Positions 54,556-60,497 of a DNA stretch of 64,000 nucleotides are shown piece by piece. Position 1 is the stretch's first letter; each line of letters starts with the position of its first letter. A program made the position numbers and the translations under genes. Location of the stretch: NCBI RefSeq assembly GCF_000377945.1, contig NZ_KB898921.1, positions 1 through 64,000 of the forward strand, read 5' to 3'. This DNA comes from Thioalkalivibrio sulfidiphilus (lineage in GTDB: Bacteria > Pseudomonadota > Gammaproteobacteria > Ectothiorhodospirales > Ectothiorhodospiraceae). The notes beneath the pieces are model-generated. The model was not told the origin of the DNA, ran no database searches, and saw only the letters and a list, made by a program, of their open reading frames with translations.

Positions 54556-55854
54556 TCAGCCTGCATCCAGCGGGCTGCGCACGGCCAGACCGCCGCGGTT
54601 CAGCACATGGGTGTAGATCTGAGTCGTGGACACGTCCGCGTGTCCCAGCAGTTCCTGCACCGTGCGGATGTCGTAGCCGCTCTCCAGCAGATGGGTGGCG
54701 AAGCTATGGCGCAGCGTGTGGCAACTGGCCCGCTTCGCGATACCCGCCCGCCGGGCCGCCGAAACGACAGCCTTCTGCACCGCCGTCTCGTGCAGATGAT
54801 GTCGTCGCGTCGCATCACTGCGCGGATCCCTGGACAGCCGGCCACTGGGAAACACGAACTGCCAGCGCCACTCCCGGGGCGCGCTGGGATACTTGCGTGC
54901 CAGGGCATCCGGCAGCATGGCCTCGCCGTAGCCCGCGTCCAGGTCCCGCTGATGCAGCGCCCGCACCTCTCTCAAGTGACGGGCAAGCGGGCCGGCCAGG
55001 GATTCAGGCAGTGGCACGATGCGATCCTTGTCCCCCTTGCCGCGCCGCACCACGATCAAGCCCCGGTCGAACTCCAGATCCTGCACCCTCAGACGCAGTG
55101 CCTCCATGAGCCGCATGCCCGTGCCGTAGAGCAGGGAAGCGATCAGCCACTGCATGCCATCCAGTTCCGAAAGCAGTCGATTCACCTCATTGCGGGACAG
55201 CACCACCGGCAGGCGCCTCGGGCGCCGGGATCGTCTGAATGCCCCCAGATCACCCAGAGGTTGTTCGAGCACCTTGTCATAGAGGAACACCAGCTCATCC
55301 GGTGCCCGGGCGTCGAAGTGCAGGAGAAATCGGCAGACCCAGCCGAGATAAGTCTTTTCCGTGCGGATCGACATGCCCCGGGTGCGTATGCCCGAGGCCA
55401 GGCGCACGAAGGCGTCCAGGTGCTTGTGTATGAGTGGGGCAAAGCGAGTATCGCCGATACGGCCCGCATAATCCTCGGGCGTCACCGGGGCGAATTCACG
55501 TGCAGTGGTGGCGTGTTGCGCTTCGAGGGTGCGGGCCGAATCCCGCCAGAAATCCCAATCCGGCGGCACGGGCCATTCTGTGCGCACGATGCTATACAGA
55601 GTCTGTATAGCATCGACCGACTGGCGGAACTGCCAGGCCTGCAAATTGGGTTTTTGCCCCAGCCGGGCCAGGTAGTCGGAGACGTCGTTCGCCTCCAGTT
55701 CCGCCAGACGCCGGCCCGGAAAGGCACGGATTAACTGCTCCGCCCGCATCACATACCAGCGTACCGATGCGGGCTTAACGCCCTGAGAGATCAGAATATT
55801 CCGGTAAAGATCCCAAAACCGGCGTTCCTGCTCGGCGCGACTCCCTGTCGCCAT
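54556..55854 (-). CDS. intI: Integron integrase (long IntI) with apparent 30-residue internal deletion
   Basis: The 432-residue tyrosine recombinase has the catalytic residues R248 ([12 protein letters not shown]), H379 and R382 (CHTLRHSF), H405 ([10 protein letters not shown]) and Y414 (IYTHVL). The IntI-specific patch [20 protein letters not shown] is present. An extra N-terminal core-binding-like domain (about 1-150) precedes the canonical one. From [10 protein letters not shown] to RRLPVVL it is 30 residues shorter than IntI1; helices after APDE are missing and the chain resumes at [10 protein letters not shown]. It may thus be impaired. GGGAGGT precedes the ATG. It faces away from the cassettes, as in true integrons. 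Confidence 0.93.
55587..55615. repeat. 29-bp perfect palindrome inside intI
   Basis: The arms 55587-55600 (CGATGCTATACAGA) and 55602-55615 pair perfectly around a single base. It lies in the extra N-terminal domain of the integrase. It does not match the LexA spacing. Confidence 0.8.
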
Positions 55855-55924
55855 AAGGCACCTCCCTGTGTGCACGAAGCTCCTGAACAGGATTCATGCT
55901 GCCGCAACGCACACCGGAGAGGCA

Positions 55925-55994
55925 AGAGTTCCGCGTACTATACGGAATCCGCATATCATCGATATGGCAGAATCCGTCTAATCAACTGTTAGCA
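55925..55994 (+). other. Putative attI recombination site
   Basis: The site lies between intI and the first cassette. The crossover core is GTTAGCA (55988-55994), which matches in inverted form the TGCTAAC that begins attC1, as expected if cassette 1 inserted here. Upstream, TTCCG/CGGAA (55929-55947) and ATATCATCGATAT are candidate integrase-binding motifs. No confident Pc promoter was found. Confidence 0.65.
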
Positions 55995-56010: not shown

Positions 56011-56490
56011 ATGAAGCTATTTTGCTTTGCATCAAAGAACGTCGAGAACATCCAAATTGGCATTGACCGTCAGTTGTGGGCAGTGGGCACGCTTCTGAAT
56101 CAACAGTCGATGGCCGGGCGTATCACAAAGGCAGAAAAATACCTTCGCCCTGGTGATCTCGGGGTTCTTTACTGCAATCCCACGCATTCATTTACCACCC
56201 CATTCATTGTCCGTTCACACGCAGATCCCAATGAGGTAGTTCTGGATGTTTGGCCTGAACCATGGTGTTTGCCTTTCAAGATCGAAACCCTCGGCGATTT
56301 GTCGAGGCAAATATCGGGAGATCTCGCTGCCAAGCATTGGCCAGTTTTGAAACGAAGGCTTGAGGCGAATCACGGGCGCGGTGGAGTAAGCGCAGCCATG
56401 AACATTACCGGTACAACCGTTTTCGTTCCTGTGGAAATTACTGGCGAAGACTGGGAGGCCATCCTTGAAGATTTGGCAAAACCAAAATAG
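56011..56490 (+). CDS. Cassette 1: EVE/PUA-like protein
   Basis: The 159-residue soluble protein has KAEKYLRPGDLGVLYCNPTH followed by a beta-rich segment and LDVWPEPWCLPFKI. This layout resembles EVE/YTH-like (PUA superfamily) domains, which recognise modified nucleotides. The match is by general pattern, not a decisive motif. Its AT content is higher than that of neighbouring core genes. It occupies a cassette running from 55989 to 56558, with the stop immediately before attC1. Confidence 0.6.
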   Translation: MKLFCFASKNVENIQIGIDRQLWAVGTLLNQQSMAGRITKAEKYLRPGDLGVLYCNPTHSFTTPFIVRSHADPNEVVLDVWPEPWCLPFKIETLGDLSRQISGDLAAKHWPVLKRRLEANHGRGGVSAAMNITGTTVFVPVEITGEDWEAILEDLAKPK

Positions 56491-56564
56491 TGCTAACAAG
56501 GGGCTCCAGGCGACCCCAAAAACGCTGGCGCGTTTTCGGGTCGCCTGAGCCCAATGCGTTGGGC
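56491..56564 (+). repeat. attC1 (74 bp)
   Basis: R'' TGCTAAC (56491-56497) and R' GTTGGGC (56558-56564) flank a long imperfect stem: GGGCTC/GAGCCC then AGGCGACCC/GGGTCGCCT, with an AAAACGC/GCGTTTT apex. Crossover is between G56558 and T56559. Confidence 0.9.
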
Positions 56565-56579
56565 AACCAAGGAGAAGCA

Positions 56580-56906
56580 ATGACGTCTGCTGAAAATGAA
56601 AAAAGGAAGACTTTGGCATTAACTGCCATCAAAAACGCCTTCGGAACCGAGGAAGGTGAAGGCAACGTTAATTTGTTTGTTGAGCATCATCTTGGGGAGT
56701 TGCCACAAAGTTATTGGCAGCAGCATCTTGGTGCTAGCTCGCCAGAACCGAAGTCTGTAGTGGGGCTTCTCCAACTTCGTTCATCCTGGGGAGACAAAGG
56801 CATTGAATATTTTGACTTCAAGCTTCCTGGCGAGGTAACGGACTACGTTGTTTCGGTGCGTTTTGATGATTCAGGTAATATCGATGGCATCTCAATGGAA
56901 AGTTGA
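56580..56906 (+). CDS. Cassette 2: DUF2004-like protein
   Basis: The 108-residue soluble protein ends YFDFKLPGEVTDYVVSVRFD followed by DDSGNIDGISMES-like residues, resembling DUF2004 members. Function is unknown. AGGAG lies 7 nt before the ATG. The coding sequence is less GC-rich than core genes. The cassette spans 56559-56978. Confidence 0.65.
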   Translation: MTSAENEKRKTLALTAIKNAFGTEEGEGNVNLFVEHHLGELPQSYWQQHLGASSPEPKSVVGLLQLRSSWGDKGIEYFDFKLPGEVTDYVVSVRFDDSGNIDGISMES

Positions 56907-56915
56907 ACCGGGCAT

Positions 56916-56984
56916 GCCCAACAAGGCGCTTGTGTGGGACGCTGCACTGCGTTGCGGCTTGCGCCCCACAGCTTGTCGTTAGCC
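56916..56984 (+). repeat. attC2 (69 bp)
   Basis: R'' GCCCAAC (56916-56922) is the complement of the GTTGGGC that starts cassette 2. R' is GTTAGCC (56978-56984). The stem includes TGTGGG/CCCACA. Confidence 0.88.
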
Positions 56985-57006: not shown

Positions 57007-58008
57007 TTGGCCGTCTGGATAGTCTCAGCAGGTTCGTCCGGGCGCGACTACGCCGACGCGTTCTACAAGTTCGGCATGGCGTTCGTGGGTGGGGGCAATC
57101 AGTGCTCTGCTATGGGCCGCGTGCAAGAGGGCGATATCATTCTATTGAAGCGCGGCGTCTCTGAGTTCTTGTCCGCGGGCATCGTCGTCAACCGGAACGG
57201 CGTCGTTTCTGGCAATGGAGATAAGGACTGGCTCCGAGATTTCGATGGCTGGGACTTGCCAGCGTATTGCCACGTTGAATGGCATGTCTCGCCTCAGCCG
57301 GTACCAGCCCAAGGATTGCGGCAGGGAACTATCTACAAAAGTTCGCAACCGCAGCATCTGGCGGCGGCTCAGGCGCTGCTAGCCGGTCCCGCCGCGCCTC
57401 CTGCCTCAGAACCCGGGGCAACGGAAGCAATCGACGACGAGAAGCTCCTGTCGTACCTAATCCAAATTGGGCTTCCCGTTTCCAGCGCAGATGAGCTAAC
57501 TGAGGCGCTCCGACGCATCCGCTTGCTTGCTCACTACTACTACACCAACTGGGACTGGGCTGAGATTCGAGAGCACGAGACGCGGACTTTCCTAGTCACG
57601 CCACTGCTTCTTGCGCTGGGCTGGTCAGAACAACAGCTCAAGATCGAACTCCCCGCGCCCGGCGGCCGGGTAGACGTCGCTTGCTTTGCTGGTCCGTACT
57701 CCGGCAAGGCTGAGGACGTCGTCGCCCTGCTCGAGACCAAGGGGTTTTCGCAGGGCCTTTTCTACGCGGCCGATCAGGCGAGAGGGTACGCTACTCATTT
57801 CCCGCGATGTAAGGCGGTAATCATCACAAACGGATTCTGCTACAAGACGTTCGTCAGAGGAGACGACGGAGCCTTTCCCGCGTCACCCTCGGCGTACTTG
57901 AACTTGTTGAGACCTCGTAGCCGCTATCCATTGGATCCTGAACATGTCGGGGGAGCACTCGATGCGCTCGATTGCTTACTTCCTGCAAAGCTGTTGCGTG
58001 GTGGCTAA
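57007..58008 (+). CDS. Cassette 3: EVE-like sensor fused to PD-(D/E)XK nuclease
   Basis: The 333-residue protein has an N-terminal domain (1-115: VWIVSAGSSGRDYADAF, QEGDIILLKRG) resembling EVE-like readers of restriction enzymes, a linker and a C-terminal HsdR_N/RecB-like nuclease. Visible catalytic residues are E191, D223 (RVDVACF), E243-x-K245 (LLETKG) and the QxxxY motif Q257/Y261 (DQARGY). This suggests a modification-dependent nuclease for defence against foreign DNA. The start is TTG at 57007 with GAGGGAGGA upstream. The stop TAA lies inside attC3. It is larger than most cassette genes. Confidence 0.75.
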   Translation: MAVWIVSAGSSGRDYADAFYKFGMAFVGGGNQCSAMGRVQEGDIILLKRGVSEFLSAGIVVNRNGVVSGNGDKDWLRDFDGWDLPAYCHVEWHVSPQPVPAQGLRQGTIYKSSQPQHLAAAQALLAGPAAPPASEPGATEAIDDEKLLSYLIQIGLPVSSADELTEALRRIRLLAHYYYTNWDWAEIREHETRTFLVTPLLLALGWSEQQLKIELPAPGGRVDVACFAGPYSGKAEDVVALLETKGFSQGLFYAADQARGYATHFPRCKAVIITNGFCYKTFVRGDDGAFPASPSAYLNLLRPRSRYPLDPEHVGGALDALDCLLPAKLLRGG

Positions 58009-58062
58009 CAATGGCTTCCGGCGGACGGCGCTTCGCGCCGCCGCTGAAGCCGAGCGTTATAC
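58003..58062 (+). repeat. attC3 (60 bp)
   Basis: R'' GGCTAAC (58003-58009) is the complement of the GTTAGCC that starts cassette 3. R' is GTTATAC (58056-58062). The stem GGCTTC/GAAGCC and GGCGG/CCGCC closes around GGCGCTTCGCGCC. Confidence 0.9.
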
Positions 58063-58091: not shown

Positions 58092-58328
58092 ATGCCAACG
58101 ATGCTCAATATTGGGCCCTATCGGTTCTTTTTCTATAGTAATGAAAGAGGGGAACCGCCCCATATTCATGTGCAGAGAGAACGGTTTCTTGCTAAGTTTT
58201 GGTTAAGTCCTGTTGCGTTGGCTGGCTCGAAACGGTTTGCTTCGCACGAGCTGCGAGCAATATAGAAGCATGTTGATGAAAACAGGGAAATATTCCTGGA
58301 GGCGTGGAATGAGCACATTGGCAGTTGA
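58092..58328 (+). pseudogene. Cassette 4a: DUF4160 gene interrupted by an amber codon
   Basis: Translation gives MPTMLNIGPYRFFFYSNERG, then EPPHIHVQ, AKFWLSPV and SHELRAI, a clear DUF4160 protein. Codon 58 is TAG (58263-58265). The frame then continues KHVDENREIFLEAWNEHIGS to TGA at 58326, the expected DUF4160 C-terminus. So a single base change removed the last 20 residues. A 57-residue truncated product is possible. Confidence 0.85.
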
Positions 58329-58554
58329 AACACATCCCCTGGCTCAGAATGTCGAGTTTACAGATGATGATCTAGTTGTGTCATTGGTGGATGGGCGAAA
58401 GGTTACAGTCCCATTGGTTTGGTTTCCGCGTTTGGCTGGAGCCAAGAAAGCGCAATTAGAGAACTACGAGCTTCTGGGTGATGGCGAAGGTATCCATTGG
58501 CCGGAAATGGATGAAGATCTGAGCGTAGCCGGATTGCTACGCGGAGATCATTAG
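58309..58554 (+). CDS. Cassette 4b: DUF2442 protein
   Basis: The 81-residue protein has VEFTDDDLVVSLVDGRKVTV and VPLVWFPRL followed by IHWPEMDEDLSVAGLL, the DUF2442 pattern. It overlaps the DUF4160 frame by 20 bp, the usual arrangement of this pair. Such pairs are often suspected to be toxin-antitoxin-like, which is unproven. GGAGG is 7 nt upstream. Confidence 0.85.
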   Translation: MSTLAVETHPLAQNVEFTDDDLVVSLVDGRKVTVPLVWFPRLAGAKKAQLENYELLGDGEGIHWPEMDEDLSVAGLLRGDH

Positions 58555-58665: not shown

Positions 58666-58854
58666 ATGTCCACAAAGATCAGTAAAGACGAAGCCCACAG
58701 GCTGGTGGATCAATTGCCTGCCGATGCGACGTGGGATGACCTGATGCGTGAAATATACGTACGCGAGGCAATTGAAAAGGGGCTAAGCGACAGTATTGCA
58801 GGAAGAACAAAGGCTGTAGAAGAGGTCAGGAAAAAGTACGGATTACCTGAATGA
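58666..58854 (+). CDS. Cassette 5a: antitoxin
   Basis: The 62-residue protein (KISKDEAHRLVDQLPADATW, then DDLMREIYVREAIEKGLSDS) is the type commonly encoded just upstream of ParE-family toxins. AAGGAGG precedes the ATG. It overlaps the toxin by ATGA. It should neutralise the toxin and bind its own promoter. Confidence 0.82.
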   Translation: MSTKISKDEAHRLVDQLPADATWDDLMREIYVREAIEKGLSDSIAGRTKAVEEVRKKYGLPE

Positions 58855-59144
58855 GAGTGCATTGGACCGAAACGGCCGAGGCCCATTTGGACGCGATATA
58901 TGGGTATATTGCACAGGATTCGGAAACCTATGCTCTTCGGACGGTTGATCAGATCACAAGAAAATCCCAGCAGATCGGCGCGTTCCCCTTGTCGGGGCGT
59001 CGGGTATCAGAATACGGCATGGATCAGATAAGGGAAGTGTTCTCAGGTCCATTCAGGATTATCTACTACATTAAGGCTGATCAGATCGACGTTCTTGCTG
59101 TAATTCACGGTGCGATGAATGTATTGCGGGATGAGCAAGAATAG
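58851..59144 (+). CDS. Cassette 5b: ParE/RelE superfamily toxin
   Basis: The 97-residue protein has VHWTETAEAHLDAIYGYIAQ, PLSGRRVSEYG and RIIYYIKADQIDVLAVIHGA, characteristic of ParE-type toxins. ParE toxins inhibit gyrase; RelE toxins cut mRNA. The ParE form is likelier from the sequence. It would stabilise the cassette array against loss. Confidence 0.88.
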   Translation: MRVHWTETAEAHLDAIYGYIAQDSETYALRTVDQITRKSQQIGAFPLSGRRVSEYGMDQIREVFSGPFRIIYYIKADQIDVLAVIHGAMNVLRDEQE

Positions 59145-59149
59145 GGAAG

Positions 59150-59246
59150 GCCGAACAATCTGCTCCAGACGTCGCTTGACAGCTTTCTCCATTCGCTATC
59201 GCTCCGGTCGGTCGCCGTCATGCGCGTCTGAGCACAAGCGTTAGGC
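59150..59246 (+). repeat. attC5 (97 bp), distal end of the array
   Basis: R'' GCCGAAC (59150-59156) and R' GTTAGGC (59240-59246) flank stem GCTCCAGACG/CGTCTGAGC with an extra C in the left strand. No further R'' core (GCCTAAC) follows, so the array ends here. Confidence 0.88.
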
Positions 59247-59341: not shown

Positions 59342-60088
59342 TCACGCCGCTGGCATCGGCAAGACCCCCTCCACCAGAAACCTTTCCACCGGCAGCACGT
59401 GCACCTGGGTCTCCGTCTCACCCAGGAAGCGCACGTGCGCGCCGTCCGTTTCGCACAGCCAGTGTTCCTGTGACCTGGGCCGGGCATCGGCCAGGGCCCT
59501 GGGGGTGAACAGGGCGACATTGATGCCCTCATCCCGCGCCGAGCGGTACTCGAAGGCCTGCACCCCCGCCTCGCGCAGGGCCGTGCCCAGTTGCTGGGTG
59601 GCGCGGTAGTCGGCGGGGTGGGTGAGTGCCACCCGGAAGGCGTCGAAGGGCGGGTCCTGGAGTCTCAGTCCCCGGCGGCTGCGGTAGGCGGCCTCGAACA
59701 CCGTGTGCCGGGTCACCAGGGCGCTGGCGGGCGGGATTGTCATGCCGTACCAGAAATAGAAGCGGTAGAAGGCGGCTTCCGCGAGCAGGGTGGGCAGGCT
59801 CAGCGAGCCGTAGAACAGGCTCGGCTCGAAGCGGCGGCCGAACCGGGAGCCGTGGCGCAGGGGCGGGTAGCGGAACGGGGTGACGAGCAGGTAGTGGCGC
59901 GGCCCTTCGGCGGGCAGGGGCGGCTTGGTGGCCTCCAGCAGGGCCTCGAGAGTGGCCTGCTCCTCCAGGGAGTCCACCAGCCGGTTGGTGGCCACCTGTT
60001 CCTGGCTTTCCACCAGGCGCAGCAGGGTGCCCTTGAGCGGGCCCGGCGCGGCGGTCTCCCGACAGGCGGACCAGATATCAGGATACAC
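59342..60088 (-). CDS. RES-domain toxin
   Basis: The 248-residue protein has a RES domain (about 70-225) with FRYPPLRHGSRFG, a conserved Glu in TLLAEAAFYRF and the RSARDEGINVALF motif carrying the conserved Ser. RES toxins degrade NAD+. The GTG start follows directly on the antitoxin stop (no gap). It is convergent with the integron array. Confidence 0.88.
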   Translation of the reverse strand: MYPDIWSACRETAAPGPLKGTLLRLVESQEQVATNRLVDSLEEQATLEALLEATKPPLPAEGPRHYLLVTPFRYPPLRHGSRFGRRFEPSLFYGSLSLPTLLAEAAFYRFYFWYGMTIPPASALVTRHTVFEAAYRSRRGLRLQDPPFDAFRVALTHPADYRATQQLGTALREAGVQAFEYRSARDEGINVALFTPRALADARPRSQEHWLCETDGAHVRFLGETETQVHVLPVERFLVEGVLPMPAA

Positions 60089-60463
60089 TCAGACTTTGCC
60101 TCGCATGGCGTCGAGGTATTCTGTCACTCTGACCAGACCCTGGGCCGTGAGCACCTGCTCGGCCGGGACGCCGCCGGTGTGGTGGTTGGCCGTGTGCATC
60201 CAGTGGCGCAGCTGTTCGGGGTCGCCGCCCACCAGCACGAACAGGGCCCGGTAGCAGCGCACCAGCAGCAGCGCCAGTTCCCCGGCCTTGCTGTCGGGAT
60301 CGATCTGGCCCCGGGTGAGGGTGCTGCGGTCCTTCCCGATCACCTGGCCCAGGGCGGCGCGGTTGAGTCCCAGTTCCTTGCCGGCATTGAGAAACGCCTT
60401 GGTGAGCACTTGGGCGGGATCTGTGCGGGTCGCGGTGGCAAGCTGGCTCATGGCAGCCTCCAA
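60089..60463 (-). CDS. Xre/MbcA/ParS-type antitoxin of the RES toxin
   Basis: The 124-residue protein has an N-terminal helix-turn-helix (about 20-60: AFLNAGKELGLNRAALGQVI) and a C-terminal MbcA/ParS toxin-binding domain (HWMHTANHHTGGVPAEQVLT). Antitoxin-first order with zero spacing is typical. A second Met four codons in is an alternative start. It is divergent from the phosphoesterase with a 34-bp gap where the operator should lie. Confidence 0.88.
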   Translation of the reverse strand: MEAAMSQLATATRTDPAQVLTKAFLNAGKELGLNRAALGQVIGKDRSTLTRGQIDPDSKAGELALLLVRCYRALFVLVGGDPEQLRHWMHTANHHTGGVPAEQVLTAQGLVRVTEYLDAMRGKV

Positions 60464-60497
60464 ACATGATGCATATGCACATTATTAGACTATAAAA

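Follow-up and report, generated by a model that had tools for sequence, protein, structure and literature searches.

VcaM4I is an EVE-HNH enzyme that acts on DNA containing 5mC or 5hmC, and holds the flipped base mainly through P24, W82 and Y130 (PMC7897488). The main text of a study from 2020 predicted that fusions of an EVE domain with a PD-(D/E)XK nuclease are type IV restriction enzymes (PMC7641849). The census of McrBC systems by Bell et al. indicated that McrB GTPase domains frequently carry insertions, which likely encode specificity domains (PMC11090510). Vibrio cassettes have established that integrons carry anti-phage genes, among them type IV systems of reduced size (review PMC12409362). 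Precedents thus exist for the fusion of a reader with a PD-(D/E)XK nuclease and for integrons that carry type IV enzymes. Here we analyse a gene of Thioalkalivibrio sulfidiphilus that joins a predicted reader domain to a nuclease domain; the window is the whole stretch of 64,000 nucleotides in which it lies.

The gene and its integron cassette

The reader-nuclease fusion gene (57007..58008, + strand) encodes a protein of 333 aa, with a TTG start and a GGAGG ribosome-binding site just upstream. Open frames of at least 333 codons appeared in none of 500 composition shuffles of the region (0/500). The window protein, searched alone, gave no Pfam or NCBIfam match; its relatives nevertheless show that the frame encodes a real protein.

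As the earlier note had proposed, the gene is an integron cassette; it stands third in the array. An integron integrase gene of 439 aa lies at 54556..55875 on the - strand (TIGR02249, 402 bits, E 1.7e-120; Phage_integrase, E 5e-39), and paired attC cores flank the cassette on both sides. The array starts at the likely attI core GTTAGCA (55988..55994, + strand), the reverse complement of the R'' TGCTAAC of the first cassette at 56491. Sequence and fold placed three attC sites on the + strand: that of the first cassette (56491..56564, TGCTAAC ... GTTGGGC), that upstream of the fusion-gene cassette (56916..56984, R'' GCCCAAC ... R' GTTAGCC) and that of the fusion-gene cassette itself (58003..58062, R'' GGCTAAC ... 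R' GTTATAC). The fusion-gene cassette starts after the G of R' GTTAGCC, and its R'' GGCTAAC overlaps the stop codon of the gene. The stems of the first and third sites fold cleanly, and that of the second folds more poorly. For cassettes one to three, the R'' and the opening R' are exact reverse complements of one another (TGCTAAC/GTTAGCA, GCCCAAC/GTTGGGC and GGCTAAC/GTTAGCC), as expected for cassettes inserted whole.

The G+C content of the cassettes is 46-59%, against 65% for the window, and the fusion gene is present in only one of the 47 genomes searched in the host order, the host itself. Taken together, the low G+C content and the absence from the other members of this set suggest that the gene was probably acquired. 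Its distribution is that expected for a mobile defence gene.

The genes around the cassette encode DNA polymerase III delta', PilZ, TatD, the integrase, the products of two cassettes of no known family, DUF4160/DUF2442, ParDE and a RES-Xre pair. The earlier note had reported no methyltransferase nearby, and none was present among the genes checked by Pfam between 52.2 and 62.5 kb. The first two cassettes (56011-56490 and 56580-56906, + strand) encode proteins of 159 and 108 aa, for which no Pfam, NCBIfam or plasmid relatives were found. PUA-like readers were considered in these two proteins (P0002 and P0003) and rejected, as they had neither profile support nor plasmid relatives. The fourth cassette (58093-58554, + strand) encodes DUF4160 and then DUF2442 (E 1.5e-12 and 8e-21); its trailing attC is degenerate and the R' core is not clear. 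The last cassette (58666-59144, + strand) encodes a ParE-type toxin (PF05016, E 2e-16) with a putative antitoxin of 62 aa upstream, and is followed by an attC-like site at 59150-59246. Directly beyond the end of the array, at 59342-60469 on the - strand, lies a RES-domain toxin (PF08808, E 3e-25) together with an Xre/MbcA/ParS-type antitoxin (PF09722, PF20432).

Nuclease and predicted reader domains

The first AF2 model, built with four sequences, had a pLDDT of 62.8, and a second one with homologous domains added reached 82.8; two rows taken from plasmid records were excluded from the structure input. For both models the top PDB match in Foldseek was VcaM4I (E 4.9e-5 and 2.8e-5), followed by YTH, ASCH, EVE and HsdR structures; HsdR of EcoR124I was the second PDB match for the better model. 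The matches of the reader fold to VcaM4I, YTH and EVE mostly had probabilities of 0.9-1.0, and those to ASCH were lower. Searches of the PDB by sequence gave no meaningful match.

Profile alignment, conservation and the AF2 model all place a predicted HsdR/RecB-type PD-(D/E)XK core at residues 185-283 (57559..57855, + strand). The assignment of this type in the earlier note is borne out by hhalign, in which the nuclease half aligned with ten HsdR-type domains with a profile-profile probability of 99.4 (E 3.5e-20). Searched against other genomes, the family profile retrieves HsdR-type restriction subunits by way of residues ~185-290. Among the HsdR-type families (PF04313/PF13588), HSDR_N_2 and HSDR_N match the relatives with best E values of 3e-5 and 8e-5, both short of the cut-off, the former only just. 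In the AF2 model, residues ~185-285 form a core homologous to HsdR, in the order alpha-beta-beta-beta-alpha-beta. D223 lies on the second strand, and the third ends with E243 and K245; most of this region has a pLDDT >87. The six family members and the nine aligned HsdR-type domains all share E189, D223, E243, K245, Q257 and Y261. Of the catalytic residues proposed earlier, D223, E243-x-K245 and QxxxY are thus retained, whereas the glutamate conserved across HsdR is E189 and not E191, which is invariant within the fusion family but varies between E, D and A among the HsdR domains. As judged from alignment and model, the nuclease domain is intact and of the HsdR type, with all catalytic residues kept. 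The protein ends ~50 residues past the core and has no translocase (DEAD/Res) domain.

On the basis of hhalign and Foldseek, residues 1-112 (57007..57342, + strand) are predicted to form a PUA-like modified-base reader of the EVE/YTH fold, whose best structural neighbours are VcaM4I, YTH, ASCH and EVE. The AF2 model gives this part moderate confidence, with block means of 53-90, and adds a helical linker at residues ~144-181 (57436..57549, + strand; pLDDT ~90). The model thus shows both the PUA-like fold and the PD-(D/E)XK core whose absence from a structure prediction would, according to the earlier note, have refuted its reading, which is thereby supported. The earlier note had called the reader EVE-like. 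The predicted PUA-like fold does resemble EVE and YTH, but by sequence the domain is not an EVE domain and is related to domains inserted in McrB. The window protein did not match EVE (PF01878) in Pfam up to E 10, and hhalign of the reader half to an EVE protein alignment gave a probability of 0.04. Canonical EVE membership was hence rejected, the likeness being at the level of the fold only; profile searches of the two halves recovered HsdR for the nuclease and did not recover EVE for the reader.

With a relative as the query, tblastn located the reader domain in AAA+ ATPases of Sinorhizobium, Rhizobium and Sphingomonas plasmids, whose genes adjoin or precede McrC or another restriction endonuclease gene. 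In these proteins the homologue interrupts the McrB GTPase domain, with Walker A (GPPGTGKT) on one side and Walker B (LIIDEIN) on the other. Four further McrB-type genes with the reader domain were found by profile, and hhalign of the reader half to the McrB-inserted domains gave a probability of 98.8 (E 5.9e-16). McrB-type AAA+ proteins with a PUA-like domain between Walker A and B are encoded at L017:2432-4927, L020, L028, L029, L031 and L033; Pfam failed to recognise the inserted domain in the two that were scanned, L017 and L020. The reader half also has a free-standing homologue, a protein of 178 aa from Pseudoalteromonas sp. CF6-2 (L019:4989-5525), which matched with E 2e-10 when a small local set was searched and with E 6e-4 when all plasmids were; it has no Pfam match. 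W82 lies within an invariant DGWDL motif and W75 is F or Y in the McrB inserts; both are candidate aromatics of a base pocket. The candidate pocket loop, residues 71-80, has low AF2 confidence (about 53).

Relatives of the fusion protein

Five relatives with both parts were found, from an unclassified MAG, Photobacterium, Cupriavidus, a genome of the same class as the host (G591) and a viral contig; coverage of genomes extended to about 1,265 genome searches and one scan of a genome contig collection. Two of them share 53% identity with the window protein (E 2e-112 and 3e-83): that on the MAG contig (L003), which is full length, and that on the Photobacterium toruni plasmid pCECT9189-1. The Cupriavidus metallidurans relative is full length with 27% identity, and that on the viral contig (L009) has 26% identity. 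No relatives were found among phage records.

The Photobacterium toruni copy (L007:4617-6864) is split inside the reader domain by an IS3-family element. Its 42 N-terminal residues lie beyond the insertion sequence, with 57% identity, and their recovery indicates that all six family members had both halves. The public record annotates the split gene as a shorter HsdR N-terminal domain protein. In G591, a RelBE-like toxin-antitoxin pair from the ORF list (L011:2803-3305) directly adjoins the homologous gene. No methyltransferase was seen in the inspected ORFs and annotation flanking the relatives. Weak N-terminal matches in two other genomes, G019 and G123 (L005 and L006), had no plausible gene continuation and were judged to be due to chance. 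The fusion appears to represent a new, unnamed family, set apart by the combination of a reader of the McrB-insert type with an HsdR-type nuclease.

Proposed activity and comparison with known systems

The product of the cassette is likely to be a type IV-like DNA endonuclease that depends on modification and consists of a single chain; its recognition of modified DNA is inferred from the homology of the reader. The N-terminal PUA-like domain would bind DNA at a modified base, which would flip into an aromatic pocket; a cytosine modified at C5 is the most likely such base. Docking of the reader would then position the C-terminal HsdR-type PD-(D/E)XK domain to cut nearby DNA. The nuclease should require Mg2+ and not ATP, would probably cleave as a dimer, and would require no motor protein. 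Its targets are probably phages or plasmids with chemically modified DNA, so that the protein may have an anti-phage or anti-plasmid role. No partner methyltransferase would be needed, because host DNA would be without the mark. A more specific proposal is that the protein belongs to a motor-free type IV family, in which an McrB specificity domain fused to an HsdR-type nuclease reads a novel modification and fits within one cassette; we regard this as tentative.

The complement of methyltransferases in the hosts is consistent with a nuclease of the 5mC type. C5-cytosine methyltransferases (PF00145) were not found in the host or in G591, and the host genome has no match to PF01555; a 5mC-type nuclease would be harmless to hosts with no C5 methyltransferase. 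The evidence from PF00145 is weak, since four of 14 control genomes likewise have no match to it.

EVE/YTH-type readers can bind RNA too. What the PUA-like domain reads might be RNA, tRNA, or an end or structure of DNA, in which case the protein would be an abortive-infection or RNA-linked effector. The structural neighbours comprise YTH and ASCH domains, some of which bind RNA, and methylated RNA is the ligand predicted in the CoCoNuT paper for the YTH-like domains of McrBC relatives (PMC11090510). However, the nuclease half is of the HsdR type, which cleaves DNA, with all of its catalytic residues, and the structure that best matches both domains together is that of an enzyme dependent on DNA modification, which makes an RNA or other target unlikely. 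The homology to HsdR could also point to an orphan nuclease that acts in trans with a type I methylation-specificity complex of the host, the PUA-like part only aiding DNA binding. The host does have N6_Mtase matches ~4 kb from an HSDR_N match on the same contig (C3), but the fusion protein has no DEAD/Res translocase and its relatives stand alone in unrelated hosts; such an association seems very improbable.

Three points count against the modification-dependent reading: the reader does not match canonical EVE profiles, the model confidence of the candidate pocket loop is low, and the gene is third in the array, from which expression may be low. The third position would also fit a cassette that is decaying or silent and has no function. 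A scan for the sigma-70 consensus found no forward promoter-like site, and the split of the Photobacterium gene by the IS3 element points in the same direction. In contrast, the frame is intact, the attC cores are paired, and the catalytic residues and both domains are kept down to ~27% identity. Loss of function is therefore improbable, and a modification-dependent DNA endonuclease remains the explanation that we prefer.

Such an enzyme would share with VcaM4I and other EVE-HNH enzymes a single chain with an N-terminal reader of the PUA superfamily, a helical linker and a C-terminal nuclease (PMC7897488). It differs from them in that the nuclease is an HsdR-type PD-(D/E)XK domain instead of HNH, and the reader has no EVE profile match. 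The general layout of a reader and a PD-(D/E)XK nuclease is also that of the EVE-PD(D/E)XK enzymes, but the reader here is of the McrB-insert lineage, and the main text of that study is silent on integrons and brings in HsdR solely as a partner in type I systems (PMC7641849). The nuclease core, including the QxxxY motif, is homologous to that of type I HsdR, although the fusion protein has no motor domain and neither HsdM nor HsdS. The reader halves of the relatives match positions ~60-125 of the profile of PDC-S02, a candidate phage defence family in PADLOC (E 4e-8), whereas the window protein gives no match and the nuclease half is unmatched.

Like the Vibrio anti-phage cassettes (PMC12409362), the locus places one small gene of a predicted defence type between attC sites of an integron; the host and apparently the gene family are different. 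If the proposed mechanism is true, the protein would be another small defence enzyme, and a further case in the mounting evidence for integrons as stores of anti-phage genes. The reader is homologous to the specificity insertions of McrBC (PMC11090510), but here it is joined directly to the nuclease, with neither a GTPase nor McrC. The protein would then be the counterpart of McrBC in a single gene, with no motor and open to shuffling by integrons. It would also offer a direct route to what the insert domain of the McrB GTPase recognises, because assays should be much simpler with one protein of 333 residues than with McrBC.
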